NCBI RefSeq assembly: GCF_028735875.1
Contig: NZ_CP117834.1
Coordinates: 1,538,001 to 1,602,000 of the forward strand
Source: Shouchella hunanensis
GTDB taxonomy: Bacteria; Bacillota; Bacilli; Bacillales; Bacillaceae_D
Direction: 5' to 3'
Length of the DNA: 64,000 nt
Positions 9,579 through 29,295 of the stretch are shown here, piece by piece (the stretch's first letter is position 1; every line of letters starts with the position of its first letter). Both the position numbers and the translations under genes were made by a program. The notes under the pieces were generated by a model. The model was not told the DNA's origin. It saw only the letters and a list, made by a program, of their open reading frames with translations, and did not search any database.

Positions 9579-9654
9579 CAGATAGATGTATAGTTCGCTA
9601 TATTTTTGATAAGAATGAACAATATACGTTTCTATGAATGGATGAGTATAAAGT

Positions 9655-11860
<2,206 letters not shown>

Positions 11861-11871
11861 AATGATTACTA

Positions 11872-11902
11872 GGGAGCGGTGGAAACGAACCGCTCTCTTT
11901 TT
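11872..11902 (+). terminator. metS terminator
   Basis: GGGAGCGGT / ACCGCTCTC stem with an 8-base loop and a T5 run, just after the metS stop. Confidence 0.8.
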
Positions 11903-11987
11903 ACATTGCCCTGAAATCTTAGGAACCAAGTGTTGAAACGATCCAATAAAATGAACAGAAAATAAAAAAATAAATTAAAATTAACTA

Positions 11988-12034
11988 TTGAAATCGCTTT
12001 CACTATCGATTATGATCTTATTGAAACGTTTCAA
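11988..12034 (+). promoter_or_regulatory. SigA promoter with cre site and operator palindrome, upstream of the lacI-type gene
   Basis: TTGAAA (11988-11993), 17-bp spacer, TATGAT (12011-12016). TGAAATCGCTTTCA at 11989-12002 fits the CcpA cre consensus and overlaps the -35. TTGAAACGTTTCAA at 12021-12034 is a perfect 14-bp palindrome at the predicted transcription start, the likely operator of the LacI-family product of the next gene. Together they imply catabolite repression plus local control of the sugar island. Confidence 0.75.
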
Positions 12035-12054: not shown

Positions 12055-13029
12055 ATGCCCACATTAAAAGATGTAGCAAAAAAAGCAAAAGTAAGTGTGT
12101 CGACGGCTTCTTACGCTATGAATGGTAGCTCGTTAATCTTACCTGAAACAAAAAAAAGGGTTCATGATGCCGCAAAAGAGCTTGGTTATCGGATTAATGG
12201 ATCTGCAAAAAATTTAAAAAAAAGTAAAACCGAAATTGTAGCTGTATTTATTAGTGGATTTACTGGACCAGTTTTTAACGAAATGTTAGAAGGGGTTCAC
12301 GAGTACATTGCGAAGCACGGTTATGAATTAGTTGTTTGTGCGTCTAATGATAAACATAGATTGATTGTAGAAAATCATTTTGATGGGGCAATTATCCTTA
12401 ATTACCATATGGAAAATGATCTATTAGAGATGATTGCGTCAGAGAAGATGCCAATTATTGTACTAGATCGAGAAAGCCAGCACCCCCATATCCACTCATT
12501 GCTATTGCCAAATGATAAAGGTGTACAACAAATTATGGAAGCGATTACAAAGTCAGGTCATGAGCGGATAGGCTTTATGGCTGGTCAAGGATCATCGTTT
12601 GATGGAGAAAAACGACTTGAAGCATTTCAATCATTTATGCAAGAGAGGGATTTACCTATTTATTTGAGTGATTTTATTCGTGCTGATTTTACAGAAGAGA
12701 GCGGATACCACTGTATGGCAGCTTATTTAGAAAAAACAAGTGGAAAATCGCAAGCAACAGCCTTTGTTTGTGCCAATGATGAGATGGCAATCGGAGCCAT
12801 TCGTGCGAGTAAAGAAAAAGGCATGCGAATTCCAGAAGACATTGCCATTGTAGGTTTTGATGATATACCCATTGCTATGTACACAGACCCCCCGTTAACA
12901 ACGGTTCGGGTGAATAAGAAGCAATGGGGCAAAGAGGCAGCAAGACAACTACTGGATCGTATCGAAAAGAATCCAACTGAATTACCTCGAGAAACGATGG
13001 TTGAGTTAGTGAACCGCGGATCTTTATAA
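12055..13029 (+). CDS. LacI/GalR-family transcriptional regulator
   Basis: 324-aa regulator. The N-terminal helix-turn-helix (LKDVAKKAKVSVSTASYAMNG, quoted in part) is followed by the hinge helix and a periplasmic-binding-protein-like effector domain (about 60-324) ending in GFDDIPIAMYTDPPLTTVRV. It is the first gene of the island and its promoter carries a palindrome at the transcription start, so autoregulation and control of the downstream transport genes is likely. The effector sugar is unknown. Confidence 0.93.
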   Translation: MPTLKDVAKKAKVSVSTASYAMNGSSLILPETKKRVHDAAKELGYRINGSAKNLKKSKTEIVAVFISGFTGPVFNEMLEGVHEYIAKHGYELVVCASNDKHRLIVENHFDGAIILNYHMENDLLEMIASEKMPIIVLDRESQHPHIHSLLLPNDKGVQQIMEAITKSGHERIGFMAGQGSSFDGEKRLEAFQSFMQERDLPIYLSDFIRADFTEESGYHCMAAYLEKTSGKSQATAFVCANDEMAIGAIRASKEKGMRIPEDIAIVGFDDIPIAMYTDPPLTTVRVNKKQWGKEAARQLLDRIEKNPTELPRETMVELVNRGSL

Positions 13030-13070
13030 GCTACGATTAATAATGCCCATAAAGGTGAGGAGAGATTATC

Positions 13071-14432
13071 ATGAAAAAGTTCTTACTAATGCCAGTTGGA
13101 ATAATGCTAATTACATTAGCGGCATGTGGAGGAAATGATTCAGCAACAGAAGAAAACGGCGGAGACGATCAAGTTACCATTACATACGCTAGCTGGGGAA
13201 TTGGTCAAGATGGAGAAGAAAACCTCGATACGCTAATGATTGACGCTTTTATGGAGGAATATCCGCATATTAAGGTTGATATTGACCGGTCGCTTGACCC
13301 TGCTGATTGGAATAGCTCACTAGCTTCGGCTGCTAGCGCAAGTACAATGCCAGATGTGTTTACCATTGCCGAAGTACCATTGGGTTTAAGTAATAATTGG
13401 CTTCTTGATTTAAATGGGTTGACGGAAGCGGATGAGGAGTTTGGTGAAATACCAGAAGCAATTCGACTTGCAGTCAACTACAACGATTCTATCTATGCAG
13501 TGCCATCAGGAACGCAGATGCTTGGCTATTTCGTCAATAAAGATTTATTCAACCAAGGCAATTTAACGATTCCGAAGTATGGCTATAGCTTAGACGAATT
13601 TTCTACGGCCATTCGGGAAACATCCGATGTTCAGCAAGGTGTATCAGGTATTAATCAAATTTTTTCAATTCCAGACTGGTATCCATCGGTTGTAGATGAA
13701 ACAGCGGGCTGGTATACATTTAATGATGCTACAGGCTATGATCTCGCTAGTTCCAACTTCATTAATGGAGTGCAATTAGCATCTGATCTTGCAAATGGAA
13801 ACTATGCGTATGATTCGTTAGATGATGCACAAAAGGAGCGCTTTGCAGGAGACAATGCAGAAGAAGTATGGTTGAACGGCGATATTGCGCTTAAATGGGA
13901 TGGTACATGGAGTCTCGAAGGATTAAACAATGATGCAGAGTTTGATTGGGATTTTGTCGGTATTCCAGGCGGGCGTCCGGTTGTAACAAATGATTACCTA
14001 GGCATTTCTAGTTCAACAGAGCATGAAGACGAAGCCTATTTATTTTCAAAATGGATGGCGTTTGGGAAAGAAGGCTTCTTAAAACGAATTGAACTTGCTG
14101 ATGAAGCTGGCATTGTTGTGAATAAACTTCCAGTAACAGCTGACCAAGACGTATTGGATCAATTTTTTGCTAATATTGATGTTCCAGGAATAGAGCAAGC
14201 ATATGAAGGTATTGAGAACGCGGTCATTGAACCAATGAAAACGGTTCCGGGATATGTAGATTCTCGTTGGGAAGCACCAACAGGCATTTCAATTGGGGAT
14301 GAAGGAAATGCAACCATTGCAGCTCTTATCGATGCTGCAGTGCGTGGCGATATTAAAATAGAAGATTATGCAGTTCAATTAAATGAGTTAGCGAATAGTC
14401 GTTATGAAGAAAGCAAAGAGGCAATCGAATAA
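13071..14432 (+). CDS. ABC transporter extracellular solute-binding lipoprotein (family 1 type)
   Basis: 453-aa sugar-binding protein. A lipoprotein signal peptide ends in the lipobox LAAC (cysteine about residue 19), so it should be anchored to the outer face of the membrane. The rest is a family 1 solute-binding fold (for example ITYASWGIGQDGEENL, MPDVFTIAEVPLGLS, WLNGDIALKWDGTWSLEG). It is followed by a hairpin, which suggests that it is expressed at a higher level than the downstream genes. Confidence 0.9.
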   Translation: MKKFLLMPVGIMLITLAACGGNDSATEENGGDDQVTITYASWGIGQDGEENLDTLMIDAFMEEYPHIKVDIDRSLDPADWNSSLASAASASTMPDVFTIAEVPLGLSNNWLLDLNGLTEADEEFGEIPEAIRLAVNYNDSIYAVPSGTQMLGYFVNKDLFNQGNLTIPKYGYSLDEFSTAIRETSDVQQGVSGINQIFSIPDWYPSVVDETAGWYTFNDATGYDLASSNFINGVQLASDLANGNYAYDSLDDAQKERFAGDNAEEVWLNGDIALKWDGTWSLEGLNNDAEFDWDFVGIPGGRPVVTNDYLGISSSTEHEDEAYLFSKWMAFGKEGFLKRIELADEAGIVVNKLPVTADQDVLDQFFANIDVPGIEQAYEGIENAVIEPMKTVPGYVDSRWEAPTGISIGDEGNATIAALIDAAVRGDIKIEDYAVQLNELANSRYEESKEAIE

Positions 14433-14444
14433 ACAGTAAAAGAG

Positions 14445-14490
14445 AAAAAGCGCGTTAGACAACGTCATGCATTTGTTGTAAGCGCTTTTT
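14445..14490 (+). terminator. intra-operon hairpin/terminator
   Basis: AAAAAGCGC / GCGCTTTTT closes a 46-base hairpin with further partial pairing inside. It lies between the binding lipoprotein and the 960-aa gene, and could give partial termination or protect the upstream mRNA. Confidence 0.6.
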
Positions 14491-14547
14491 CATTTAAAAG
14501 ACTTTCGAGCAGCTCCTTTTAAGTATGAAAGGAAATGGGGGGGTTTG

Positions 14548-17430
14548 ATGTTAAAAAGAAGTTCTATTGTTTGTTTAACCATATTAGGTTTTCTAGCTTA
14601 TTCGCAACCAACTGTAGCAGAGACGACTGAAACACTTGAAGAGCTGGAGCTATCATACGATGAGGTTTATCAGAGCAACAAAGATGAGTACGGTAACAAA
14701 ATAAGTGATTCGCAACACTTTACTGTCAATCAATTTAAAGAATACGAAGGGATTGATCAGGACTACATCAATTGGGCAACGGATGGTCGTTTTACAGTAG
14801 AGGTGGATGTGGCTGAAGCTGGTTTGTATGAGATCGGTGTTGCATATCGGGTAACAGAAGAAACCCTCGTGCCTTCTGAAGGAGCTATTCTAATAAATGG
14901 TCATTATCCGTTCTCAGAGAGTAGAGGAATGATCTTTCCTAGTGAATGGATTCAAAATGAAACAACGTTTGAGCAGGATCGCTATGGAGCAGATATTATG
15001 CCTAGTCAGAGTCAACTACAAGACTGGCAAACGTTTCGATTAGGTGATTCAAGAAGAGTGGAACCATTTGCATTTGCGCTTGAGCAAGGACAGAACACGA
15101 TAGAATTCAAACATGTCCGAGGCGAAATGGATATAGCCCATGTAACGATCGAGCCGGTGACAGAGATTTCAACTTACGATACATACATAAGTGACATAGA
15201 CGACGAAGAGGTTATTAACGATTTAATTACAATTGAAGCCGAACACCCAAGCAAAAAAAACGAATCCTCTATACGACCAATTGTGACGCAGGATCCTTCC
15301 GTTTCACCGTATGAGACTGGAGCAAGGCTACTTAATACATTCGGGGGTGACTCTTGGAAAGTAAGTGGTCAATCTGCCTGCTGGTCTTTTGAAATTTCCG
15401 AGAGCGGATTTTATTATATTACTTTTAAGGCACTGGCAAACAACGATGCCAATAAAGATATATACCGTACCATTTATGTGAATGGAAGGATACCATTTGC
15501 AGAACTTAAGAGTTATCCATTTCCGCAAAGTGCTCATTGGGAGAACCAAACACTAGCTAATGATGCCAATGAGCCGTTTCGTATTAATTTGGAAGCAGGC
15601 ATGAATGAACTTTGTCTAAGGGTGGACGACACTCCTACGCAAGAGGTACAAAATGAGTTAACGCTCATTATGGCGGAAATGGATGAATTAACGTTATCAA
15701 TTAAACAATTAACTGGAAATCAGCAAGATGCAAGTAGAGGATGGCGTATTGAAGATTATATTCCCGATGTGTCCAATCGGTTACGCTCTTGGGCTCAGAA
15801 GGTCGAGACTGGAGCTGATAAGCTAAGGGCTGCAAGTACAAGTGAAGGAGATAGCGTTCAAGGTGTGTCACTAAGAGTAGCAGGGGATCGTTTACGCTCT
15901 TTAGCGGAGACACCGAACGAATTACCGAACCGCTTAAATGAATTATCTGAAGGCTCCAGTTCGGTTTCTCAAGTACTCGGGGATGTGTCCATTGCTTTAA
16001 GAGAACAACCACTTCTGCTCGATCAACTGTTCATTCATGGCAAAACTTTGTTGCCGGATGCAGAAGCTGGGTTATGGATGAAAACCAAAGAATCGGTAAG
16101 TCGCTTTTTTCAATCATTCAGTGGCGACGATTTAACAACGGTAAATACAGAGCACGATGTTGTTGAAGTGTGGGTTAATCGACCACGTCAATATGTTGAC
16201 TTAATGCAGTTAATGGCGGATCAACAATTTACACCGGAGACAGGAATTGAGGTCAGGTTTTCACTTATGCCAGATGAACAAAAGTTAATTTTAGCAAGTG
16301 CAGCTGACAGTCAACCAGATTTGGCATTAGGGATTAGTAACTGGCTACCATACGAGTTAGCCATTCGTGGTGCAGCGGTAGATTTAAGCCAATTCGACGA
16401 TTTTGATGACTATATGAATCAATTTGCCCCAGGGGCATTTATGCCGTTAATGATTGAAGATTCAATCTATGCGCTGCCAGAGACGCAAGATTTTTCGGTG
16501 TTGTTTTACAGAGAGGATTTAATGGATGCATTATCCCTACCTGTTCCTAATACATGGGGGGATGTGGTTGACATCTTACCAGAATTACAACGGTATGGTA
16601 TGAACTTCTATTCATCAATTGCAGGAGGTGCAGCCTTCAAGCCTTTTGCAGCAACAGCACCGTTTATCTATCAATTTCAAGGTCAAATCTTTGAAAAAGA
16701 TGGTATGGGTGTGGCCTTAAATGAAGATGAAGCACTGCAAGGTGTGCAGTTTATGGCTGATTTAAACACGATTTACAGTACACCCTTGCAAGTGCCAAAC
16801 TTCTATAATCATTTTCGGTATGGCTCACTTCCTTTAGGGATTGGAAACTTTGCAACTTACGTGCAGTTAACCTCTGCAGCGCAAGAATTGAGTGGCTGGG
16901 ATATTGCCCTGCATCCTGGTGTCGAACAGGAAGATGGCTCTGTCTCTCGTTGGGCCAGTGGTGCCGCGCAAGCTGGCATGATGTTTAACGGAAGCGACAA
17001 TCAAGAACAGGCATGGGCGTTGTTACAATGGTGGATGAGTAAAGAAACACAAAGGGAGTTTGCTCAAACCTTGCAAATGACGTACGGGGCAGAATACATG
17101 TGGAATACGGCTAACCTTGAAGCATTTAAAGAACTTCCATGGCCAGAGGAGCATAAAGACGTTATTTTAACGCAATGGGAACAATTAATTGAAGTGCCCA
17201 AAACACCATATGCCTATATGGTTGAACGGGAGATAAGTAATGTTTGGAATAAGATGGTCTTTGATGGTGAAAATGCTCGTTCGGCTGTTGATGATTCGAT
17301 TATTACGATCGATCGCGAGCTGCGCAGAAAGATGGAAGAGTTTGGCTATATGCAAGATGGAGAAGTGATCCGTCCGTACCCAATTCCGACAATTGAAGCG
17401 ATCAAACAGAAAACGAGGGAGAGCGAATGA
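14548..17430 (+). CDS. secreted multidomain solute-binding protein with tandem N-terminal carbohydrate-binding-like modules
   Basis: About 960 aa with a signal peptide (residues 1-25, cut after TVAE). Two similar beta-rich modules follow, at about 30-210 and 225-375: [10 protein letters not shown] ... ILINGHYPF and [10 protein letters not shown] ... IYVNGRIPF are clear internal repeats resembling carbohydrate-binding modules. A helical linker (about 380-530) leads to a family 1 solute-binding domain (about 540-960, [11 protein letters not shown] ... PDLALG). There is no lipobox and no clear membrane anchor. It overlaps the first permease gene by four bases. ATG 14548 follows a G-rich ribosome site; TTG 14545 is the alternative. 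Confidence 0.8.
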
Positions 17431-18320
17431 ATACACAACCAAGACAACACGTGAGCACTGCATTGTTCTTAGCTCCGTATTTACTCTTATTCATTCTCTT
17501 TATTGTCATACCAGTTCTTGCAGCAATTGTATTATCGTTTACGTATTTTAATGCAATTGAATTTCCAAGCTTTGTTGGCTTGGCGAATTATGTAAACGTA
17601 TTAACGCAAGATAGTGTGTTTATGCAGTATGTCTTGCCAAATACTGTCATCTTTGCGCTTATCGTCGGACCAGGCGGTTATATCCTTGCATTTATTCTTG
17701 CGTGGATGCTAGCGCAAATCACAAAAGTGCCGAGAACGATTTTAGCGCTAATCATTTACTCACCATCAATGACTTCTGGAATTGCGATGGCTGTTGTTTG
17801 GTCCATTATTTTTAGTGGCGACCAGAGTGGTTATTTAAACAGTCTCTTAATGCAGTGGGGAATGGTATTTGAACCAATTCAATGGTTACAGTCTCCACAG
17901 TATCTATTAGCGATTATGATTGTTGTTACTCTTTGGGGCAGTATGGGTGTCGGATTCTTAGCGATGTTATCAGGGGTTATGAACATTAATAAAGAGATTT
18001 ATGAAGCTGGTTATATTGACGGCATTAGCAATCGATTTCAAGAAATTATTTATATTACAATCCCATCTATGCGACCGCAAATGTTGTTTGGCGCTGTGAT
18101 GGCAATTGTGCAAACCTTTCAAGCTGGTGCGATTGGTGTCGCGCTATCTGGAGCGAATCCTACGCCTCAGTATGCAGGGCAGTTAATGGTTAACCACCTT
18201 GAAGATTTTGGTTTTATCCGCTACGAGATGGGCTATGCAGCTGCAATATCGGTTATCTTGCTTCTTTTTGTGTATCTTTTTTCGATCGTAGCAAGACGGT
18301 TATTTGCGGATAAAGATTAG
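17427..18320 (+). CDS. sugar ABC transporter permease (MalF type), pair A
   Basis: 297-aa integral membrane protein with about six helices, the first being [20 protein letters not shown]. The EAA loop that contacts the ATPase is [15 protein letters not shown]...P. Pairs with the next gene to form a heterodimeric importer; overlaps the 960-aa binding-protein gene (ATGA), suggesting they work together. No ATPase is encoded nearby. Confidence 0.92.
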
Positions 18321-18331
18321 GAGGAGCAGAC

Positions 18332-19213
18332 ATGGCGAGTTCGTTTCATGGGAGCAGAATGAATCCCGATAAATTTCACCTAAGTCAGCTGAAATTTTAC
18401 TTGTTTTTAATACCGCTTGCGATTTTTATGGCTATGCCAATCGTCTATATTTTTTCGCATGCATTTAAACCAATTGATGAGTTATTTGCTTATCCCCCGA
18501 GGTTTTTTGTCGACAAACCAACGATACAAAATTTTGCTGATTTAATTAACAATCGAAGCGAATCTGGAGTACCAATGTCCCGTTATTTATTTAACAGTAT
18601 TATCGTTACGCTTGTTGTTGTTGCCATTACCGTGTTTATTAGTTCAATGGCAGGCTACGTGCTATCGAAAAAGAAATTCAAACTAAAAAAAATGATATTT
18701 GAACTAAATACTCTCGCTCTAATGTTTGTTCCTGCGGCTGTAGGAATTCCAACGTACTTGCTTATCCAACAAATTGGTTTGCTCGATACATTTTGGGTTC
18801 ACATCCTGCCAATGCTTGCTATGCCAGTCGGTTTATTCTTATTGAAACAATTTATCGACCAGATTCCGAATGAGCTAATTGAAGCGGCACAAATGGATGG
18901 AGCGAAAGACATTCAAATCTATTGGAAAATTATTATGCCTTTGGTAGCTCCTGCACTGGCAACGGTAGCGATTTTATCTTTCCAAGCAGTATGGAACAGT
19001 GTAGAGGCATCAACATTGTATATCAACGACGAAAACTTAAAAACCTTTGCCTTTTACATGTCTACTTTAACAAGTGATGCTGCAGGAAATACGGTAGCTG
19101 GACAAGGAATGGCTGCAGCTGCAGCGCTTATTATGTTTTTGCCAAACCTAGTAATTTTTATTATTTTACAAAGCAAGGTAATGAATACGATGGCCCATTC
19201 AGGGATTAAGTAA
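18332..19213 (+). CDS. sugar ABC transporter permease (MalG type), pair A
   Basis: 293 aa, six predicted helices, EAA loop [20 protein letters not shown]. Partner of the preceding permease, which ends 11 bases upstream. AGGAGG lies just before the ATG. The C-terminus ([12 protein letters not shown]) is typical of MalG-type permeases. Confidence 0.93.
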
Positions 19214-19228
19214 GGGGGAAGGAACGAG

Positions 19229-21247
19229 ATGAAGCAAACACTGCTCACATGGCTCTTTATAATGATTGTCTGTCTCTTGCCATTGAGCGCACAGGCATCC
19301 GTTGAGGTTCCTTATAAAACTTATACACTTACTGGTGAAGGCTATCCGATTGAAACCCAAGTTGCATACGTACCGGTTGGAAATATTGGGTTGACGGGTG
19401 ATTTACTAGCGCCGGAAGATCTGTTTGTTGGGAAAGACAATTTGATTTATGTTGCCGATTCGGGTTTCCAGCACGTTGTTGTTTTTGACGAAGAGGGAAA
19501 ACGGATTCGGGAAATTGGGACTGGACTATTAAGGGAGCCACTTGGTGTTTTTGTTAACGAAGAAGGTATTTATGTTGCAGACTACGCGCTTGAAGAAATC
19601 GTTTTATTTAATCATAGTGGTGACCTCATCAACACATTCGGCAAACCAGATACACCTTTATATGGGGAGCGTGCAGCCTTCAAGCCTCAAAAAATCACGG
19701 TGGATCGTAGAGGCAACCTTTACGTTGTTTCTGAGGGATCAACAAATGGGATTGTCCAACTAAGTGCAGAGGGTGATTTTCTTGGTTTCTTTGGTGTCAA
19801 TCGCTTTGGAGGTTCATTGCTTTCCTTTTTACCGGATCTAATAACAAGCGAAACTCAGCGGGTAAATCAATTTTTACGGGTACCCCCTGCTCCAACGAAC
19901 ATAACGATCGATGAGCAGGGGCTCGTTTACACGGTAACGGCGGGTACGGATAATGAAGTCGTGCGGCGTTTGAATATTGCTGGTGCGAATATGCTTCCTT
20001 CTGATATAGCAGGTTCAAATCCAATGCGCGATGTGGCTGTTGGTGCAGCTGGTAATATGGTAACCATCTCGACGGACGGAACCATTTATGAGCTCGATCC
20101 AGAAGGCTACACACTGTTTTACTTTGGTGGAAAAGAAGATGGTACCAGTCGGGCAGGCTTGTTTGTTCAGCCAAGTGCAATTGAGGTCGATCGTAACGGC
20201 CAGCTACTTGTAGCCGATCGAGAAAAAGGGACAGTCGAGCTATTTAATCCGACAGGTTTTACGAGGAATCTTCACGAGGGAATTCGCTTGTTCACAGAAG
20301 GTTACTATGTTGAAAGTGAAGCGATTTGGCAAGATGTCTTACAGTTAAATGCCTCCTTCGCCCTTGCCCACAATGCGATTGGCCAGTCTGAGTTTAAACA
20401 ACAAAACTATAATAAGGCGATGGCTCGTTTTGAGCGTTCCAATAATTACAGTGCCTATTCTAATGCATTCTGGGAAGTGCGTTACGAATGGATGCAAGAA
20501 AAGTTAAGTTTGTTGTTCGCTTCCATTATCGGATTAATAACACTCCGTTTCGGCATCATTTATACAAACCGACGCTTTGGTTATTTAGCACCAGTAGAAA
20601 AAAGGTGGGTGCAGGTTAAGCGTTTAAAGTTATTTAATGAACTACTGTTTGTGTTTCGCTTTATTCGTCACCCAATTGATAGTTTTTATTATGTAAAAGA
20701 AAATAAACGGGTTTCTATTTTATCAGCTTCTATTCTGTATGTGTCTCTATTTATCTCGTATTTGTTTTTCATCTACGGTCGAGGGTTTATTTTCAGACCA
20801 ACACCACTAGAATACTTTTGGTTTACGTATGATTTACTCATATTTGCTACGCCGATCGTCTTTTTCTTACTTGTTAACTATTTGGTGAGCACCATTAGTG
20901 ATGGTGAGGGACGCTTTCGAGAGCTGTATATTGGCTTTATATATGCGAGTGCCCCCTTGTTAATAGGGCTCGTTCCTCTCGTATTCGTGTCCCGTATTTT
21001 AACGTTAAATGAAGCGTTTCTCTTTCAATTTAGTTTACTTAGCATGATTGTTTACGCACTAGTAATTCTTTTTATCATGCTGAAGGAAATTCATGATTTC
21101 ACATTTTGGGGTACGGTGAGAAATGTGGTCCTTACCATTTTTGGCATGATCTTGCTTGCTTTTGTGCTTATGATTGTTTATGTCCTATTTGATCAAGTCA
21201 TCCAGTTTTTAGCATCCATTTGGCAGGAGGTGCTCTACCGTGTTTAA
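19229..21247 (+). CDS. NHL-repeat beta-propeller / TPR / Yip1-domain membrane protein
   Basis: 672-aa protein of unknown function with a composite layout. A signal peptide (1-24, ending AQA) precedes an extracellular NHL-type propeller (about 50-345, with repeats such as NLIYVADSGFQHVVVFDEEG, EEGIYVADYALEEIVLFN and GQLLVADREKGTVELFNPTG). One TPR-like helical pair (about 352-410) follows, then a membrane helix, then a Yip1-like domain with about five helices (about 470-665). It lies between two permease pairs and overlaps the next gene by eight bases, so it probably belongs to the uptake system, perhaps as a sensor or surface scaffold (inference). Confidence 0.75.
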   Translation: MKQTLLTWLFIMIVCLLPLSAQASVEVPYKTYTLTGEGYPIETQVAYVPVGNIGLTGDLLAPEDLFVGKDNLIYVADSGFQHVVVFDEEGKRIREIGTGLLREPLGVFVNEEGIYVADYALEEIVLFNHSGDLINTFGKPDTPLYGERAAFKPQKITVDRRGNLYVVSEGSTNGIVQLSAEGDFLGFFGVNRFGGSLLSFLPDLITSETQRVNQFLRVPPAPTNITIDEQGLVYTVTAGTDNEVVRRLNIAGANMLPSDIAGSNPMRDVAVGAAGNMVTISTDGTIYELDPEGYTLFYFGGKEDGTSRAGLFVQPSAIEVDRNGQLLVADREKGTVELFNPTGFTRNLHEGIRLFTEGYYVESEAIWQDVLQLNASFALAHNAIGQSEFKQQNYNKAMARFERSNNYSAYSNAFWEVRYEWMQEKLSLLFASIIGLITLRFGIIYTNRRFGYLAPVEKRWVQVKRLKLFNELLFVFRFIRHPIDSFYYVKENKRVSILSASILYVSLFISYLFFIYGRGFIFRPTPLEYFWFTYDLLIFATPIVFFLLVNYLVSTISDGEGRFRELYIGFIYASAPLLIGLVPLVFVSRILTLNEAFLFQFSLLSMIVYALVILFIMLKEIHDFTFWGTVRNVVLTIFGMILLAFVLMIVYVLFDQVIQFLASIWQEVLYRV

Positions 21248-23501
21248 AAAGCTCGTTCGTGTGAGTATAACTTTTGGTGTTATTCTTTTTGCTGGACAAC
21301 AGCTTGTCTATGCGGAAGAGCAGGAGTCAGGAATAACCCCTTGGCAACGTTCAAATCAATTCACGCAACCTGATCATGCAGAACAGGCTAAACTTCCAGT
21401 TGTGAACCCGGAAGATCATGGGTTTATAAAAATGGCAGAAACAGAAGAACTAATTCTTTATGTAGAGCACGAGTCACTCGGGATTGCGATTAAAGCCAAA
21501 CAAACAGGCTATGTTTGGCAATCTGGCGTCCATGGTAATGAGGATGCCCAACTAAATGAAACGTGGCGAGATATGGCAAATTCAGCGCTAACTGTTGAGT
21601 ACTTAGACCAGCGTGACACGATCCAAACAGAAAGTCTTGTTACATACAATCCTGACATACATGTGGAGCAAACGGACTCAGGCTTTAAAGCAGACGTTGT
21701 GTTTGGACGATCAAATATTGAATTGACACTATTGGTTTCGTTAGATGGTGAACGATTGCAACTTACTATACCTGAAGAATCCATTGTAGAGGGTGATCGA
21801 GCTAAGCTTGTAACATTGCGCTTGTACCCGTTTCTAGGTGCTGCAGATGAGAACCTATCTGATGGATACTTATTTATTCCAGATGGAAGCGGTGCGTTAA
21901 TTCGATTTGAAGAAGAAGCAAGAGCGACTTCGCCATATCGAGCCCCTGTTTACGGAGAAGACGCAGCATTTGAACGGAATCAAACAGCCGTTTCTTTATT
22001 AAATGAGCCCTTATCAATTGCTTACCCCGTATTTGGTGTTGTACATGGAGAGAAACAAAATGGGTTCGCAACCATACTTGGAGAGGGTAAGCATTATGCG
22101 ACGATTTTGGCCTATCCAAAAGGAGCATCAACTGATTTTTATTGGGCGACTGCTTACTATACATTTCGTCATGAGTATTATCAACCAACTAATCAAAGTG
22201 GTGATGGTTTTAATACGTACCAAACTGAGCGACTTTTATACGGAATTGAACAAGAGCGTGTGTTCTTACAAGAGGATCATGCTAGCTATGTGGGGATGGC
22301 CCATGCGTATCAAGAATACTTAGCAACAAATGAACGACTGCCTGAGCAAAAGGATCAAGTGCAGCTAAATGTAACCTTCTTAGGTGGGGAAACAAAACGG
22401 CGCTTTTTTTGGAGGACGGTTGAACCTGTAACCCCTGTTGCAGCTATTGCTAACCACGCTGCAGAACTGAATCAGGCAGGTGTGAAGAACATGCAAATTA
22501 CGTATCGTGGTTGGCTGGCTGGAGGGTTGACAGGAACATTGCCGCGAAAGGATGGGTTTGAATCAGCACTTGGTACAACAGGTGAGCTTGCCTCTACACA
22601 ACAGTATCTAGCGGATCTTAACATTCCTTTTTATTTTCAAACCGATTATACGAAAGCGTACGATGGGGCTGCAGGCTTTTCAGGACAACATGATGTTGTG
22701 AGACGATTAAATGGTGAGGCTGCATTGGAGGTAAGAACGTTTTGGGATCATTTTTTGCTAACGCCTGAGTGGGCGCTTAACACTGTTGATGCAGATCTAT
22801 CGATGTACAAAGAGAATGGCATTAACCGATTATCGATTGATACGACCGCTTCTGAATTGTTTAGTCATTATACAAAAAGGACGGTTATGCAGCGCGACGA
22901 AGTGCTTCAACAATATGAAATGCTATTCGAAAAACTACTATCTGAAGTTGGGCCATTAGCACTGAATCGACCGAATGATTATGCCTGGAAGTATGCCGAA
23001 AGCTTTCAACAGATTCCCCTTTACTCGTCCAATTACACGGTAGTAACCGATACGGTGCCGTTTCTGCAAATTGTTTTAAAGGGGCATGTACCTTACTTTG
23101 GAGAATTCTCTAATTTTCATAATCAAACCGAGCAAGACCTTCTTCGGATGATTGAATACGGTGCTTATCCATCGTTCTTGTTAACAACAGAGTCTCCAGA
23201 TGTACTTTTCAATACGCCTTCCGAAGATTTATTTACGTCACAATTTTCTACGTGGAAAGAAGATGTGACGAATCAATATGAATTAGCAATTCAAACTTTA
23301 GAACCTGTTGAGGGTGAACAGATTATAAACAGAGTTGTGCACGGAACGGGATTAATTGAAATGGTTTATTCAAACGGACTATCGGTAGTTGTGAACTATC
23401 GGCAAGCGGATGCAACTATTAATGGACTGGTACTTTCTCCGTTAAGCGCCAAGACCGTCCAGAGTTCAGAACTTGCTAGAGACAAGGAGGATCGCCCATG
23501 A
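21240..23501 (+). CDS. DUF5696-like secreted protein of the sugar-uptake locus
   Basis: 753 aa with a signal peptide (1-25, ending VYA). The body resembles the DUF5696 family found beside carbohydrate ABC transporters: an N-terminal beta-rich region (GYVWQSG ... DGYLFIPDGSGALIRF, about 90-230), then a probable TIM-barrel-like half (FLGGETKRRFFWRTVEPVTP, TYRGWLAGGLTGTLPR, PFYFQTDY, about 365-650). Enzymatic activity is plausible but unproven. GTG start with GGAGGTG eight bases upstream; overlaps both neighbours. Confidence 0.7.
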   Translation: MFKKLVRVSITFGVILFAGQQLVYAEEQESGITPWQRSNQFTQPDHAEQAKLPVVNPEDHGFIKMAETEELILYVEHESLGIAIKAKQTGYVWQSGVHGNEDAQLNETWRDMANSALTVEYLDQRDTIQTESLVTYNPDIHVEQTDSGFKADVVFGRSNIELTLLVSLDGERLQLTIPEESIVEGDRAKLVTLRLYPFLGAADENLSDGYLFIPDGSGALIRFEEEARATSPYRAPVYGEDAAFERNQTAVSLLNEPLSIAYPVFGVVHGEKQNGFATILGEGKHYATILAYPKGASTDFYWATAYYTFRHEYYQPTNQSGDGFNTYQTERLLYGIEQERVFLQEDHASYVGMAHAYQEYLATNERLPEQKDQVQLNVTFLGGETKRRFFWRTVEPVTPVAAIANHAAELNQAGVKNMQITYRGWLAGGLTGTLPRKDGFESALGTTGELASTQQYLADLNIPFYFQTDYTKAYDGAAGFSGQHDVVRRLNGEAALEVRTFWDHFLLTPEWALNTVDADLSMYKENGINRLSIDTTASELFSHYTKRTVMQRDEVLQQYEMLFEKLLSEVGPLALNRPNDYAWKYAESFQQIPLYSSNYTVVTDTVPFLQIVLKGHVPYFGEFSNFHNQTEQDLLRMIEYGAYPSFLLTTESPDVLFNTPSEDLFTSQFSTWKEDVTNQYELAIQTLEPVEGEQIINRVVHGTGLIEMVYSNGLSVVVNYRQADATINGLVLSPLSAKTVQSSELARDKEDRP

Positions 23502-24364
23502 ATCGGTTAACGATGAAAACAAAAAAAACGCTAACTGGATATGGGTTTATACTTCCTTGGATCATTGGATTCGCGATCTTCACGGCATTTCCATTATTTT
23601 ATTCCATTTATTTAAGTTTTCATGATGTCATTATTACACCAAATGGCATTCAAACAACGTACACACATTTTTCAAATTATACGGATGCGTTTGTTGTCGA
23701 TAGTCAATTTGTGCAAATTCTAGTAACGTACTTACGTGAATTCGCGTTTTCCGTACCGGTCATTTTAGTGTTCTCTTTAATTATTGCGCTACTTTTAAAT
23801 CAGCCAATACGGTTTCGTGGATTGTTCCGGATGGTGTTCTTTCTGCCAGTTATTATTATAAGTGGGCCAGTGGTGAAACAATTAATTGATCAAGAAATGA
23901 CAAGTATACCTGTTCCAGAAAATAATCTTCTTTTTGTGTATTTACTAGCAGGTGATGGTATAGTCAGCACCGTTTTTACGTATTTAATGGATAATCTCGT
24001 TATGACTCTTTGGTTTTCAGGTGTACAAATTTTAATTTTTCTAGCTGCTTTGCAGAAAATTGATCGTCACATTTATGAAGCAGCAAAAATCGACGGTGCA
24101 TCGAACTGGGAATGCTTCTGGAAAGTAACGCTTCCAAGTTTATTTCCGATTGTGGTAGTAAATACCATCTATACTACGGTTATGTACTCCATTTTTGCAT
24201 TAAATGGTGTTGTACTTCATATCCAAAGCCATATGTTTCGTGTAGAGACTGGATTTGGTTACGCCTCTGCCTTATCTTGGATTTACTTTGCTGTTATCTG
24301 CTTACTCTTACTTCTAATCGTTGGCTTTATGACAGTACGCGGACGTAAGGGGGGAGCATCATGA
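23498..24364 (+). CDS. sugar ABC transporter permease, pair B
   Basis: 288 aa, six predicted helices starting GYGFILPWIIGFAIFTAFPLFYSIYLS (quoted in part), EAA loop EAAKIDGASNWECFWKVTLP. Overlaps the DUF5696-like gene upstream and the second permease downstream by four bases each. This is the second permease set of the island. Confidence 0.92.
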   Translation: MNRLTMKTKKTLTGYGFILPWIIGFAIFTAFPLFYSIYLSFHDVIITPNGIQTTYTHFSNYTDAFVVDSQFVQILVTYLREFAFSVPVILVFSLIIALLLNQPIRFRGLFRMVFFLPVIIISGPVVKQLIDQEMTSIPVPENNLLFVYLLAGDGIVSTVFTYLMDNLVMTLWFSGVQILIFLAALQKIDRHIYEAAKIDGASNWECFWKVTLPSLFPIVVVNTIYTTVMYSIFALNGVVLHIQSHMFRVETGFGYASALSWIYFAVICLLLLLIVGFMTVRGRKGGAS

Positions 24365-25317
24365 ATATACAAACTAAGAAAGTAAAGAAAAAGCGTTCCA
24401 TCGTTGGTTTCACAAAAATAAGAAAGCTGTTAATAGGGAGCCAAGATAATAGCGGGTTCATACTAAAGATACTTGTTTATAGTTTATTAGTCGCAATCGG
24501 ATATGTGTACTTATTTCCAGTGTTGTACATGGGTGTATTTAGCTTTAAACGTTTAGATGATTTACTAAATCCTCTCGTCACTTGGATTCCGACAGGACTG
24601 TATTGGGAGAATTTCAGTAGAGCATTAGAGGTGCTTAATTTTTGGCCAACATTATGGCAAACCTTGTATGTCACTGTTTTACCAGCTGCTATTCAAACAG
24701 GTGTTGCTGCTGTTGTTGGTTATGGATTTGCAAGATTTTCATTCCCTTTTAAGAAAACACTGTTTGCGCTCGTATTAGTGACGTTTATTATTCCTCCTCA
24801 AGTTACGTTGATTCCGCGTTATGTGTTTTTTAACGACCTTGGGTTGCTCGGAAGCATTCAATCGTTCCTTTTACCAGCTTTGTTTGCTCAAGGGATTAAC
24901 AGTGCCATATTCATTTTAATTTTCTATCAGTTTTTTCGATTACTGCCAGATTCACTTGAAGAGGCTGCACAACTTGATGGGGCGGGAAATGTACGCATTT
25001 TCTTAACCATTGCTTTACCAATGGCTGTACCAGCAATGATTATTTCATTTTTGTTTTCGCTCGTGTGGTATTGGAATGAAACGGGATTGGCAGCCATTTA
25101 CTTTGGAAATAGTTTAACAACCTTACCACTTGAACTACAGCGTTTTTCTATTGTTTATGAACAAATGTATGGTGGCGAAGGAAGTTTTGATTTTATTAAT
25201 GAAGGCATTCAAATGGCGGGGACACTTATTACCATTCTGCCGCTGCTCATTATTTATTTTATTGCACAGCGATGGTTTGTTGAAGGTGTAGATCGATCAG
25301 GAATAGCAGGAGAATAA
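24361..25317 (+). CDS. carbohydrate ABC transporter permease, pair B
   Basis: 318 aa, with a basic N-terminus (KKVKKKRS) and six predicted helices. The EAA loop is EEAAQLDGAGNVRIFLTIALP. Partner of the preceding permease. Probably energised by a shared MsmX-type ATPase encoded elsewhere, since none is found in the locus. Confidence 0.92.
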   Translation: MNIQTKKVKKKRSIVGFTKIRKLLIGSQDNSGFILKILVYSLLVAIGYVYLFPVLYMGVFSFKRLDDLLNPLVTWIPTGLYWENFSRALEVLNFWPTLWQTLYVTVLPAAIQTGVAAVVGYGFARFSFPFKKTLFALVLVTFIIPPQVTLIPRYVFFNDLGLLGSIQSFLLPALFAQGINSAIFILIFYQFFRLLPDSLEEAAQLDGAGNVRIFLTIALPMAVPAMIISFLFSLVWYWNETGLAAIYFGNSLTTLPLELQRFSIVYEQMYGGEGSFDFINEGIQMAGTLITILPLLIIYFIAQRWFVEGVDRSGIAGE

Positions 25318-25331
25318 GGGAGAGATTTACT

Positions 25332-26549
25332 TTGACTAGAGAAGACATTATTCAAGAAGAAGCGTATAGAAGTTTTTTATTTTTTTGGCAGGAGGCCAAT
25401 ACAGATTCATCTAGTCCTGGTTTTGGGTTAATACGGGATAAAACAGGTGACGACGCTGTTCATGTTGCCAGTATTGCATCGGTAGGATTTGGTTTGTCTG
25501 CAATCGTTATTGGAGTTGAGCGAGAATGGATTACGAAAGAAGAAGGATATAATCGAACGAAAGGGACATTAGAGACATTTCTGCATCGAGTGGAGCATAT
25601 CGATGGTTTTTTCTATCATTTTCTTGATATGAGAACAGCTAAACGCTACAAAGAATACCATGATTGTGCGTCTATTATTGATACATCTCTTTTTATAAAC
25701 GGTGCCATTACGTCAGCTGAATATTTCGGTGGAGATATTGCTAAGTTAGTCGAGCAAATCTATGAGCGGATAAATTGGCAAACGTATTACAACAAAGAAA
25801 CAAATCAATTCTATATGGGATTTGATGAAAAAACAGGTGGATTTGGTCAGTGGGATATGTACGCGGAGCAAATGATGCAATATATGCTTGGAACCGCGTC
25901 ACCTTCATACCCAGTCCCAGTGAAGATTTATGACGGATTTGAACGTCAAGTAGGTACATACGGGGACTACACGTTTTATCACTCACCAGGAGGGCAACTA
26001 TTTACACACCAGTTTTCACATGCATGGTTCCAATTTAAAGGAGTCGTTGATAAAGATGGAATTGATTGGTTTGACAATTCGATTAAAGCGACTCTTGCTA
26101 GTAGACAACACGCCATTGATCATCAAGACTCTTTTCAAACGTGGTCAGAGCATTCTTGGGGGCTAACAGCTAGTGAAGGGCCAAATGGTTATCATGGGCA
26201 CGGCACACCACCGTATCATCCACATGTTGATGTAAAAAATGATGGTACAGTAGCTCCATGTGCGGCTGCTGGTTCTATTGTCTTTACACCTGAACAATCG
26301 AAAGATGCTTTAGAACATTTTTATCGCAATCATCCTCAATTGTGGAGCAAATATGGGTTTTTAGATGCTTTTAATTTAGATATGGATTCGCCGTGGTATT
26401 CAGAACGCGTCATTGGGATTGATAAAGGCATTACATTGTTAATGATTGAGAATGAACGTAGTGGCTTAATATGGGATCTTTATATGAACAATGCCATTAT
26501 ACAGAGAGCACAAAAGCTATTGGGGTTTAGAACATTACAAGAAGTTTAA
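25332..26549 (+). CDS. glucoamylase-family (GH144-like) cytoplasmic glycosidase
   Basis: 405-aa protein of the 'glycoamylase' (PF10091) fold, an alpha/alpha barrel, relatives of which include GH144 endo-beta-1,2-glucanases. Signatures: AYRSFLFFWQEAN at the N-terminus, IDTSLFINGAITSAEYFGGD, FYMGFDEKTGGFGQWDMYAEQMM, SWGLTASEGPNGYHGHG and DGTVAPCAAAGS. No signal peptide, so it should act on imported oligosaccharides. TTG start after AAGGGAGAGA. Substrate specificity is inferred only. Confidence 0.75.
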   Translation: MTREDIIQEEAYRSFLFFWQEANTDSSSPGFGLIRDKTGDDAVHVASIASVGFGLSAIVIGVEREWITKEEGYNRTKGTLETFLHRVEHIDGFFYHFLDMRTAKRYKEYHDCASIIDTSLFINGAITSAEYFGGDIAKLVEQIYERINWQTYYNKETNQFYMGFDEKTGGFGQWDMYAEQMMQYMLGTASPSYPVPVKIYDGFERQVGTYGDYTFYHSPGGQLFTHQFSHAWFQFKGVVDKDGIDWFDNSIKATLASRQHAIDHQDSFQTWSEHSWGLTASEGPNGYHGHGTPPYHPHVDVKNDGTVAPCAAAGSIVFTPEQSKDALEHFYRNHPQLWSKYGFLDAFNLDMDSPWYSERVIGIDKGITLLMIENERSGLIWDLYMNNAIIQRAQKLLGFRTLQEV

Positions 26550-26563
26550 GAGGGGATGTTCCC

Positions 26564-28942
26564 ATGATCGAAATAAAAGAAAAAAAGATTTATATCGATG
26601 GCAAGCCCCAATTGATTCTATGTGGTGAAATTCATTATTTTCGGCTCGAAAAAACGGAATGGCAGGATCGAATAAACAAATTAAAAGCAGCAGGGTGTAA
26701 TGCTGTAGCTACATATGTTCCATGGATTTGTCATGAGTCAGTGGAAGGAGAAATCGATTTAACAGGGGAGACAAGGTCGGAATTAGATTTGATTAGTTAT
26801 ATCAACCTCTGTCACGAAAATGATCTCTATTTCATTGTGAAGCCAGGTCCGTTCATTATGGCAGAAATGAAGAATGAAGGAATACCTTACTGGATTTACG
26901 AAAAGCATCCTCATATTGTACCAATTGGCTGGGATGGAAGAGCAGGTTCAACGCCAACTGTTGATTATACGCACCCTGATTTTTTAAATGAAGCGAAGGG
27001 ATGGTATAAAGAGGTCATGACAGCAATTGTACCCATGTTACATGAAAACGGTGGGCCTATTATTGCTGTTCAACTTGATAATGAAGTGGGGATGCTTGAT
27101 TGGGTTAGCAACACACCAGATTTAACAGACCATGTTATTGCGTCATTTCTGAGCTGGTTAAGGGAAACGTATAGCGAAAGCGAGGATCGTTATCCGATTC
27201 CGCTAACCGCTGAAGCGATTCGTTCTCCAGATGAATCGTATACCGCTATGCTTCATTTGGACCTTGGCTATTTTATGCGACAACGATTTGCATTGTATAT
27301 TAAGTGTTTACGAGGTTATGCGGAGATGTTTGGTGTACATGCTATCCCATTTATTGTTAACATTCATGGAACTGGTGGTGGGCGTGGCTTTACGTTTCCA
27401 ATTGGCATTAGCCAACTTTATGAAAGTTATACCCAAGCACCTGGGTACTTGTCGGGTTCTGATATCTATTTTGGGGATTTAACGATGGAAACATTCCAAG
27501 ATTTGTATCTTATAAACGGAATGATGGATGCGGTTCATAGACCGGAACAACCCCTCTCATCTATTGAATTTAATTGTGGAGATGGTAACTTTGGTGAGAA
27601 TTATGGAGGGCGTTATGACCCTTCAGCAGCTGATTTAAAAGCAAGAATGTGTATAGCGCAAGGGAATCGGTTACTAAACTATTATTTATTTGCTGGTGGT
27701 CAAAATTATCGGTTTAATCAAGTGCACGGAGATGGAAATGATCGTATCGCTGCGACAGGGGAACGGCATGGATTTGCTGCGCCAATTGACCCTGAAGGCT
27801 ACGAAAATTATACATATCCACGTATGGCAGAATCCATTCAAACCGTAATGGCACAGAAGGAACAGCTTGCCGCGATGGAGGAAGAGCGAGATTCACTCGT
27901 GTTCGGCTTTATTCCTGATTATTTTATGACAGAATATCGCTACCCAAAGAGTCACAGGATGAAAATGTTGTACCAAAATCTTGAAACTTACCGCGCTCAT
28001 GGTGCATGGGAGATTATGGGCAGAGCGCTCTTGCTCGCTAACTATCGGTTTACAGGCCATGATGTTCAAAACAAGGAACTGGATCCTTCTGAACAAAAAG
28101 CAATTGTGCTCCCTTCGGCATCGTACATGAGTCGGTCGATTCAGAAAAAGCTCGTAACGTATATGAAAAACGGGGGCACGGTTTTATTGTACGGAGAAGC
28201 ACCCACGTATGATATGGAAGGGAACAAATGCCAACTCTTGCTTGAAGCGGCTAATGTGGAGGTTGTTAAGACGAGGCATGCAACTGAAAAGCAGTTTTTG
28301 TCTGTAGTGGCAAGGGGGCTAGCTTCTCCAAGACCTGAAGTGCGCACACACGTTGCACAAGTCTTTTCGAGTCAAGATGCAGAGCCGATCTTTCAGTTAT
28401 ACGGTACAGATGAGCTCACATCATTTAAAGAACAAGTAGGTCAAGGAACGCTAATGGTGATAGGAAATGCGTATCGTTGTGACATTGACTTGTTTCAAAA
28501 ATTGCTAACATCCGTAGGTGTACAGCCAACCCTTTCTCACGATTACAAGCATCACGGTCTTTTTATGACATCCACAAGAGATGAAAAGGGACAACGCTTT
28601 ATTCATGTGCTCAACTTAGATGGGCTTGAGAAGTCTTTTGCCATTTATGAACATAAACAAATGTTATTTAATCGCGTGAATGTCCATCTTGATGCACGGG
28701 CAGGTTTGCTACTGCCGCTTAATGTTTCTTATGGTTCTGTGAAAATACTATACGCTACAGCAGAGGTAAAGTGGTATCAGAAAACTTCGATGACATTTAA
28801 AGGGAGTCGTAAAGGTTTTGTGATTTTTTTACAGACAAAACAAGTTGTTCAAGTCGGTTCTGGAGTAATGGTGAAGCGCTTGGAAAAACATCATTATTTA
28901 CTGCAAGCAGAGCAAGCCGAATGTACAATAACGTTTAGGTAG
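26564..28942 (+). CDS. GH35-family beta-glycosidase
   Basis: 792 aa. The GH35 TIM barrel shows LCGEIHYFRLEKTEWQDRI, NAVATYVPWICHE, VKPGPFIMAEMKNEGIPYW and IIAVQLDNEVG, where E is the expected acid/base (about residue 175). SSIEFNCGDGNFGEN (about 328-342) contains the likely nucleophile glutamate. A Rossmann-like trimerisation domain and beta domains follow. No signal peptide. GH35 is mostly beta-galactosidase, but at least one member acts on beta-1,2-glucan, which would fit the GH144-like neighbour. Confidence 0.85.
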   Translation: MIEIKEKKIYIDGKPQLILCGEIHYFRLEKTEWQDRINKLKAAGCNAVATYVPWICHESVEGEIDLTGETRSELDLISYINLCHENDLYFIVKPGPFIMAEMKNEGIPYWIYEKHPHIVPIGWDGRAGSTPTVDYTHPDFLNEAKGWYKEVMTAIVPMLHENGGPIIAVQLDNEVGMLDWVSNTPDLTDHVIASFLSWLRETYSESEDRYPIPLTAEAIRSPDESYTAMLHLDLGYFMRQRFALYIKCLRGYAEMFGVHAIPFIVNIHGTGGGRGFTFPIGISQLYESYTQAPGYLSGSDIYFGDLTMETFQDLYLINGMMDAVHRPEQPLSSIEFNCGDGNFGENYGGRYDPSAADLKARMCIAQGNRLLNYYLFAGGQNYRFNQVHGDGNDRIAATGERHGFAAPIDPEGYENYTYPRMAESIQTVMAQKEQLAAMEEERDSLVFGFIPDYFMTEYRYPKSHRMKMLYQNLETYRAHGAWEIMGRALLLANYRFTGHDVQNKELDPSEQKAIVLPSASYMSRSIQKKLVTYMKNGGTVLLYGEAPTYDMEGNKCQLLLEAANVEVVKTRHATEKQFLSVVARGLASPRPEVRTHVAQVFSSQDAEPIFQLYGTDELTSFKEQVGQGTLMVIGNAYRCDIDLFQKLLTSVGVQPTLSHDYKHHGLFMTSTRDEKGQRFIHVLNLDGLEKSFAIYEHKQMLFNRVNVHLDARAGLLLPLNVSYGSVKILYATAEVKWYQKTSMTFKGSRKGFVIFLQTKQVVQVGSGVMVKRLEKHHYLLQAEQAECTITFR

Positions 28943-29001
28943 AGACGGACCTGTTCATTTACAGAGCATTCTCTTAGCTAATCAAGTGGTTAGTAACTAA
29001 C

Positions 29002-29033
29002 TTTACATTTTTTAATTTTTCAGGTAATGTAAA
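29002..29033 (+). promoter_or_regulatory. candidate promoter with inverted repeat, upstream of the ABC-F leader
   Basis: TTTACA (29002-29007), 17-bp spacer, TAATGT (29025-29030). TTTACATT and AATGTAAA form an 8-bp inverted repeat that overlaps both boxes. No recognised regulator motif. The remaining bases from the GH35 stop to here hold nothing else I can support. Confidence 0.4.
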
Positions 29034-29059
29034 AATGAATGAAGTAGGAGGTGAGTAGA

Positions 29060-29194
29060 TTGGATTCTTTTAATGGTAGCCAGGCAAAACGATTAGCGTA
29101 TTTATGGATGTGTCAGGCGATTTTTTCAGCAGTAGTTAAAAATTGGATTAGTCTGTCCGTTTTTAAACAACTGTATAGGAAAATAAACCATTAG
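29060..29194 (+). CDS. 44-codon ORF, possible leader peptide of the ABC-F gene
   Basis: TTG start preceded by GGAGGTGAG, encoding 44 residues beginning MDSFNGSQAKRLAYL and ending RKINH. No recognisable domain. Its stop lies at the 5' edge of a large inverted repeat enclosing a terminator, the layout of ribosome-mediated attenuators of ABC-F resistance genes. It could instead be a small protein or chance. Confidence 0.5.
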   Translation: MDSFNGSQAKRLAYLWMCQAIFSAVVKNWISLSVFKQLYRKINH

Positions 29195-29277
29195 AAAGAA
29201 ACACGTCTGTCTACTCGCATACGGTAACACATGCAGCAGCGATCTTTCGCTGCTTTTTTCGTGTTTTGTTTCTTTCT
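29193..29277 (+). promoter_or_regulatory. attenuator: terminator hairpin enclosed by a long-range inverted repeat, upstream of the ABC-F gene
   Basis: The inner hairpin AGCAGCGA / TCGCTGCT (29235-29254) is followed by TTTTT, an intrinsic terminator 40 bases before the ABC-F start. AGAAAGAAAC (29193-29202) is perfectly complementary to GTTTCTTTCT (29268-29277), and ACACG (29201-29205) to CGTGT (29260-29264). Ribosome position on the leader could decide which structures form. The mechanism is inferred. Confidence 0.6.
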
Positions 29278-29295
29278 TGACAAAAGGAGAAGCAA

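Follow-up and report, generated by a model that had tools for sequence, protein, structure and literature searches.

A probable beta-1,2-glucan uptake operon in Shouchella hunanensis with a conserved seven-gene cassette

What do eleven co-oriented genes of Shouchella hunanensis, lying downstream of metS, bring into the cell, and how long have they been there? The window, that is, the whole stretch of DNA analysed, spans 64,000 nucleotides (G000:C1:1538001-1602000 of 4,064,600 bases; G labels denote genomes, L labels loci, P labels window proteins and C1 the contig, G000 being the window's genome). A first-pass annotation had proposed a specialised oligosaccharide uptake system with uncharacterised surface components. 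That proposal is supported, and we can narrow its substrate. The operon probably imports pieces of beta-1,2-glucan, or whole cyclic beta-1,2-glucans of other bacteria, by means of a seven-gene cassette, and breaks them down intracellularly. Uptake operons for beta-1,2-glucan are of a known kind; what appears to be new is the conserved seven-gene glycan-import cassette. We found no description of it in the literature searched, most subscription journals being outside the reach of that search, and no paper on DUF5696 (PF18952) in the same literature.

The eleven open reading frames (ORFs) all lie on the + strand between 12055 and 28942, running from the LacI through the GH35 gene, with families assigned by Pfam.

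12055..13029, + strand: LacI-family regulator (P0003; Pfam LacI and Peripla_BP_3)
13071..14432, + strand: SBP1, a lipoprotein-type solute-binding protein (SBP) (P0004; SBP_bac_1; lipobox)
14545..17430, + strand: large SBP of 961 residues (P0005; Pfam and predicted model)
17427..18320, + strand: permease A1 (P0006; BPD_transp_1)
18332..19213, + strand: permease A2 (P0007; BPD_transp_1)
19229..21247, + strand: membrane protein with NHL propeller, weak TPR match and Yip1 domain (P0008; Pfam)
21240..23501, + strand: DUF5696 protein with predicted GH129-like fold (P0009; PF18952, E 1.4e-171; model and Foldseek)
23498..24364, + strand: permease B1 (P0010; BPD_transp_1, weak, E 1e-06)
24361..25317, + strand: permease B2 (P0011; BPD_transp_1)
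25332..26549, + strand: GH144-type putative endo-beta-1,2-glucanase without signal peptide (P0012; PF10091; PDB matches; residues)
26564..28942, + strand: GH35 protein of the beta-1,2-glucosyltransferase type, without signal peptide (P0013; Pfam; PDB match; residues)

This gene content agrees with what had been read from the sequence at first pass: eleven co-oriented ORFs with a LacI regulator, two SBPs, four permeases, an NHL/Yip1 protein, a DUF5696 protein and two glycosidase-family genes. The part that does not stand firmly is the TPR region of P0008, which Pfam matches only weakly (TPR_2, E 0.022, below cut-off). Successive genes are separated by 41, 112, -4, 11, 15, -8, -4, -4, 14 and 14 bases, and the eleven probably form one operon. 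The listed start of the large SBP gene is TTG, with an ATG one codon further on. The DUF5696 protein is 100% identical to a protein of Shouchella miscanthi AK13 (L036).

The two enzymes point to beta-1,2-glucan. All seven PDB sequences matched by P0012 at E≤1 are XCC2207, the endo-beta-1,2-glucanase 5gzh and relatives, and we take all seven to be filed in GH144. The top chain is XCC2207 (E 2.9e-50), and the CpSGL-type endo-beta-1,2-glucanase is matched at E 7e-43. In P0012, E179 falls at the general acid and F224 at the conserved clan Phe (aligned to positions 225 and 272 of the 8xul chain, whose position 225 is a Gln that we read as the E239Q mutant). D117 aligns with D157 of 8xul and with a Glu of 4gl3, so the base-candidate position is acidic; we read it as the position of the candidate base E142 of CpSGL. 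The key GH144 residues (general acid Glu, Phe, base candidate and Tyr) were taken from PMC12102758. P0012 is the one PF10091 gene in G000.

The best PDB match of P0013 is the Ignavibacterium album beta-1,2-glucosyltransferase 7vkw (E 4.6e-60; residues 6-693, nearly full-length). P0013 keeps seven of seven catalytic and -1 subsite residues (Y52, E102, N175, E176, N275, E343 and Y378) of the GH35 beta-1,2-glucosyltransferase set in PMC8861115, including an Asn in whose place the glucosaminidase TkGlmA has Asp. A plain beta-galactosidase is disfavoured by this best match and these residues. Both proteins belong to the families named, and their sequences suggest the corresponding activities. Neither has a signal peptide at its N terminus (by eye), so cutting of the glucan should follow its entry into the cell. 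According to PMC11739564, GH144 enzymes act in endo fashion, which would make import of longer or cyclic molecules possible.

The binding proteins add a third component. By sequence, the top match of the SBP domain of P0005 is Lin1841 (E 1.6e-14), which binds beta-1,2-glucooligosaccharides of three to five units (PMC12369401). The model of the large SBP comprises two beta-sandwiches, a helical region and the SBP domain (predicted local distance difference test score, pLDDT, 86.7). Its N-terminal half has no Pfam family above cut-off; among 28 large-SBP homologues this half matches CBM_35 in 18 and Golvesin_C in 17 (E≤0.5). The best PDB profile match of the half is a designed coiled-coil protein (3.6e-09), which we read as mirroring the helical part, and a region of a cycloisomaltooligosaccharide glucanotransferase comes third (8.1e-06). 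A simple lipobox pattern, applied to overlapping sets with start codons as called, is found in 84 of 86 SBP1 proteins, four of 105 large SBPs and 12 of 117 DUF5696 proteins. The large SBP seems, from its sequence, to lack a lipid anchor. The nearest PDB chain of SBP1 is 22hh, which comprises five entries, and the match is unusually close (E 2.6e-90).

Relatives of the operon keep similar company. At locus L017 the cassette is followed by a gene for the 1,2-beta-oligoglucan phosphorylase SOGP (PF21958, 3e-105) and a GH3 gene. Across 80 named loci, which are the best 80 and the nearest relatives of the window's DUF5696 protein, SOGP homologues occur in 17 and GH144 homologues in 32. SOGP is present in all seven non-Shouchella genomes tested, and in at least one of these (G084) it lies far from the cassette. 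On a DUF5696 tree of 111 rows the window's protein sits in a well-supported clade of 38, and GH144 or SOGP accompanies 36 of these, one locus being too short to judge and one (L065, which has GH35 genes) having neither; this is a FastTree tree with some long branches, and near-copies inflate the clustering. A search of G000 for the SOGP phosphorylase found none. Elsewhere in that genome a GH3 beta-glucosidase gene (L150, G000:C1:934345), 53% identical to the SOGP-linked GH3 of L017, adjoins LacI and SBP genes.

Judged by these matches, enzymes of the beta-1,2-glucan type and a binding protein of that type stand together in one operon. Its most likely substrate is beta-1,2-glucan, a narrower proposal than the beta-glucans and plant polysaccharides suggested at first pass.

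The seven-gene cassette is ordered large SBP, A1, A2, NHL/Yip1, DUF5696, B1, B2. This order recurs in 19 of 19 order-level loci (a count that leaves out the broken G006 locus) and in 61 of the 80 named loci, 60 with exactly these genes and L111 with these and then another importer, the rest being incomplete as called. Twenty loci from 16 genomes were hand-chosen at phylum level from 55 strong places outside the window: 15 have the order, L141 is permuted (NHL/Yip1, DUF5696, B1 and B2, then large SBP, A1 and A2), and four are incomplete as called. The NHL/Yip1 gene directly precedes the DUF5696 gene in 20 of these 20. Our simple ORF caller misses genes where contigs end or the DNA is GC-rich, and we think that such losses explain many of the incomplete loci. 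In many cassettes (L030-L035, L130-L136) NHL/Yip1 is split into two ORFs of about 490 and about 210 residues.

The three unusual components travel together. Among 100 relatives, DUF5696 occurs in 20, and the same 20 have a strong NHL/Yip1 match (E 1e-40 or better) and a large SBP that includes the N-terminal half. NHL/Yip1 gives weak partial matches in three further genomes (E 2.7e-4 to 9.3e-4). Of the 65 genomes with any large-SBP match, the others match the SBP domain only, among the matches listed. A lack of any co-occurrence in other genomes would have refuted the first-pass annotation; instead these genes keep company, in a fixed order. Among 398 genomes from the phylum, 39 have a PF18952 match above cut-off, and DUF5696 matches also appear in Chloroflexi, Thermosipho and Clostridia records.

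The enzymes beside other cassettes vary: GH51-type and GH43 proteins; GH26, GH43, GH3 and an esterase (ten proteins examined, two of them without a family); and GH30, GH106-type and GH3. Because it is found with enzymes as varied as these, the cassette looks like a general glycan-import device. EAA-like motifs are present in 106 of 106 A1, 103 of 108 A2, 98 of 108 B1 and 105 of 108 B2 permeases, in overlapping sets of which the lowest is 14 of 18 for B1. The operon encodes no ATPase; MalK-type ATPase genes lie elsewhere in the genome, apart from permease genes, and one of these ATPases may serve the cassette. Beyond residue 60, P0008 has six hydrophobic segments. The large SBP and the DUF5696 protein, mostly without a lipobox, would need a partner in order to stay with a single-membrane cell, and NHL/Yip1 is the obvious candidate.

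What is the DUF5696 protein? Its model is confident (pLDDT 91.5; predicted template modelling score 0.92) and matches GH129 by Foldseek over nearly its full length (5opq, E 4.3e-31, template modelling score 0.74 on target length). A DUF5696 profile also matches the GH129 enzyme NagBb (E 5.5e-05). These two matches make the case for a predicted GH129-like fold; a local hhalign comparison with GH129 homologues, which gave 54% probability only, is not part of it. The catalytic acid pair of NagBb is presumably D435/E478. In an alignment through GH129 homologues, N576 of P0009 stands opposite the acid/base, and D534 stands at the nucleophile column or two columns off. Across 59 DUF5696 homologues the residue is acidic at 576 in eight, at 534 in 45, at both in one and at neither in seven. 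With both positions acidic in one of 59, a classical GH129 enzyme is disfavoured, which leaves other acids of the barrel unexplained. The family resembles the GH129/GH101 alpha-N-acetylgalactosaminidases in a near full-length model match and differs from them in rarely having acids at both aligned catalytic positions. DUF5696 probably binds rather than cuts. In L095, L100, L106, L108, L109, L110 and L112, several of them arabinan-type, DUF5696 is acidic at the acid/base column and not at the nucleophile, the reverse of the beta-1,2-glucan clade.

How might the operon be controlled? Four features stand out in its non-coding DNA.

11933..11946, no strand: upstream operator-like site TTGAAACGATCCAA, differing at two bases from the palindrome at 12021; the island-less genome G003 retains something close to it
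11988..12016, + strand: promoter-like TTGAAA-17-TATGAT, its first hexamer inside TTGAAATCGCTTTCA (11988-12002), which resembles a catabolite-responsive element (cre)
12021..12034, no strand: perfect palindrome TTGAAACGTTTCAA, the proposed LacI operator
14443..14491, + strand: stable hairpin between the SBP1 and large SBP genes (-19.4 kcal/mol, z -2.93, fold of 14433-14500)

The palindrome TTGAAACGTTTCAA has no second exact copy in the window, and it is also found exactly ahead of the LacI genes of G001 and G006. The cre-like site and the weaker palindrome copy are present in G001 and G006 in altered form, the cre-like site differing at its last base. Between 11800 and 29400, five promoter-like sites have 10 of 12 matches, and the one at 11988-12016 is the sole non-coding site among them. 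Such sites are no commoner in this interval than in shuffles (28 found vs 46.9 expected). Terminator-like hairpins lie at 11871-11898 after metS and at 29235-29254 before the ABC-F gene; the scan found 15 terminator-like sites vs 13.6 expected.

Together these parts suggest a mechanism. The LacI protein would repress from TTGAAACGTTTCAA, with catabolite control acting at the cre-like site. Outside the membrane, the lipoprotein SBP1 and the large unanchored SBP, with its carbohydrate-binding-like domains, would catch the sugar. NHL/Yip1 and DUF5696 would keep the large SBP in place and pass the chain on to two MalFG-like permease pairs, through which the seven-gene cassette would import it, driven by a shared MsmX/MalK-like ATPase encoded elsewhere. 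Inside the cell the GH144 protein would cut the glucan. Because G000 yielded no phosphorylase, we propose that the GH35 protein and a GH3 beta-glucosidase encoded elsewhere finish the digestion. Transport, the form of the substrate and the platform role are all things that we infer from sequence and models.

A bolder version of this mechanism has rather less than an even chance in our view: the seven genes would build one envelope machine, a twin-engine ATP-binding cassette (ABC) importer. In it a surface assembly (NHL/Yip1 as membrane base, a non-cutting DUF5696 and the unanchored large SBP with its carbohydrate-binding domains) would grip long or cyclic glycans and hand them to the two permease pairs. 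Single-membrane bacteria could thereby import large glycans whole, the cassette would be a functional Gram-positive counterpart of SusCD, and the beta-1,2-glucan operon would be one of several substrate-specific editions.

Several observations weigh against the proposal of beta-1,2-glucan import and the machinery we assign to it. The conserved GH144-clan Tyr (XcSGL Y367) aligns to P297 of P0012 with a gap nearby and Y295 two residues off, so this Tyr is not placed. Compared with the glucosyltransferase, P0013 has G341 for the +1 subsite residue R349, T270 for W279 and Met for L100. Its acceptor may differ, as R349 and W279 are missing; R349 is not conserved in many homologues of the glucosyltransferase (PMC8861115). 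SOGP is found in none of the four Shouchella genomes tested, one of which (G003) is island-less. The literature searched gave no ligand for 22hh; PMC13311272, which could be the source of that structure, gives different PDB codes. In a fold comparison with the SBP domain of P0005, 5ci5 and the cyclic alpha-1,6-glucan binder 9xf5 rank first, and Lin1841 comes at rank 13. Permease B1 is only weakly matched by Pfam. The DUF5696 barrel has highly conserved acidic columns in the 59 homologues (639 in 59, 384 in 58, 379 in 58 although Thr in P0009, and 604 in 56), and some other catalysis by the protein is possible as a result. Finally, what points to a platform role is co-occurrence together with missing anchors.

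Might the operon simply encode two ordinary ABC importers, each made of an SBP and a permease pair and each taking chains of a different length, with DUF5696 as an active secreted glycosidase and NHL/Yip1 as either a sensor or a membrane protein unconnected with them? Both permease pairs look complete, with EAA-like motifs, the split in L141 makes two half-units distinguishable, and residue 639 of the barrel is invariably acidic. Yet 20 of 100 genomes have all three of the large SBP, NHL/Yip1 and DUF5696, and the remaining 80 have none of them; DUF5696 accompanies enzymes for quite different glycans, unlike a substrate-specific enzyme; and its aligned GH129 acid/base position is acidic in just eight of 59 homologues. 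We rate this arrangement at about one chance in several. We think it less probable still that the operon serves another glycan, such as other beta-glucosides or glucosamine or galactose chains, and that the relatives of its enzymes mislead. A GH35 protein next to GH144 need not act on glucan: Bxy_22780 is a beta-1,2-galactosidase (PMC11739564). Besides the changes at R349 and W279 and the missing ligand for SBP1, the top NCBIfam match of P0013 is an exo-beta-glucosaminidase, at 209 bits far under the 1500-bit cut-off. Against this, three independent components (P0012, P0013 and the SBP domain of P0005) indicate beta-1,2-glucan, and SOGP accompanies relatives.

The least probable of the alternatives, with a very slim chance, is that the genes arrived recently, as a genomic island that landed between metS and the gene next to it. 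The first-pass annotation had described an island splitting a conserved metS-tatD junction. In this genus that junction does not seem to be the one involved: metS ends at 11860 and tatD/yabD starts at 31858, and the 19,997 bases between them also hold the ABC-F gene and a minus-strand Usp gene. Among 12 Shouchella genomes in which the junction was read, the island occurs at this site in three (G000, G001 and G006) and is absent from nine, including the nearest, G003 and G005, which favours recent arrival. In G003 and G005 the order is metS-ABCF-Usp-tatD; other congeners have further genes there. Within the genus, then, the island separates metS from ABC-F. By homology with G003 its edges lie near 11962/11963 and 28986/28987: the G003 spacer matches the window through 11962 and resumes at 28987. 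In the operator region G003 also agrees with the window at 27 of 28 bases (score 25.5 vs ≤13.5 in 500 shuffles, for a segment chosen after being seen); one stretch of the G005 spacer has no such operator-region match (6.5). At fourfold sites G000 and G001 agree little, both in island genes (identity 0.28-0.40) and in five genes nearby (0.29-0.47). We reject recent insertion because the site is the same in three species, synonymous identity is low in island and neighbours alike, and G003 keeps a remnant. Since its spacer matches both flanks and an operator remnant is kept, we read the history as loss of an old operon from G003. In place of an island that split a junction, we see an operon that seems to be long established in the genus and to have disappeared from at least one relative.

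How does the beta-1,2-glucan operon compare with known systems? The Listeria innocua beta-1,2-glucan cluster comprises the SOGP Lin1839, the GH3 Lin1840 and the SBP Lin1841 (PMC12369401). The SBP domain of P0005 is nearest to Lin1841, and SOGP and GH3 genes of that kind adjoin the cassette in related genera. Unlike that cluster, the window's operon has no SOGP, has GH144 and GH35, has an SBP of 961 residues, and adds NHL/Yip1, DUF5696 and a second permease pair. We know of no NHL/Yip1, DUF5696, second permease pair or large SBP of this kind in Listeria. The IALB_1185 cluster of I. album is alike in combining GH144, GH35 of the same subtype and an ABC importer, with no beta-glucosidase gene in the cluster according to the available text; it differs in its TonB-dependent transporter, extracellular or membrane GH144 and SOGP-like protein (PMC8861115). 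As far as the texts consulted go, SOGP is not a defining part of the I. album or Streptomyces clusters. The operon is like CUT1 ABC sugar importers with an MsmX/MalK-type ATPase in its lipoprotein SBP, MalFG-like EAA permeases and ATPase gene outside the operon. It is unlike them in its two permease pairs, its large SBP without lipobox and its two partner proteins that are always present.

If this reading is true, many Firmicutes and Chloroflexi loci with two permease pairs, a Yip1 protein and DUF5696 gain one testable function. For DUF5696 there would be a fold, a constant set of partners and a role that is probably not enzymatic. Shouchella, along with many other Bacillales, could feed on the beta-1,2-glucans of other soil bacteria, which raises the question of how single-membrane bacteria import long or cyclic glycans.

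The surroundings of the operon offer some minor observations. In four island-less congeners (L121, L122, L123 and L125) a gene for a 334-residue secreted-looking protein and a short helix-turn-helix-like gene on the opposite strand lie between metS and ABC-F; in G007 (L126) the same place holds a 378-residue transposon-like gene (TnpB-type, by eye). The ABC-F gene after the island (29296-30921) is preceded by a short leader ORF (within 28943-29295) and a strong hairpin. The leader ORF is also present in G001, G002, G003, G005, G008 and G009, and the arrangement looks like translation-controlled attenuation. Ahead of metS, at window positions 9625-9848, lies a T-box leader.

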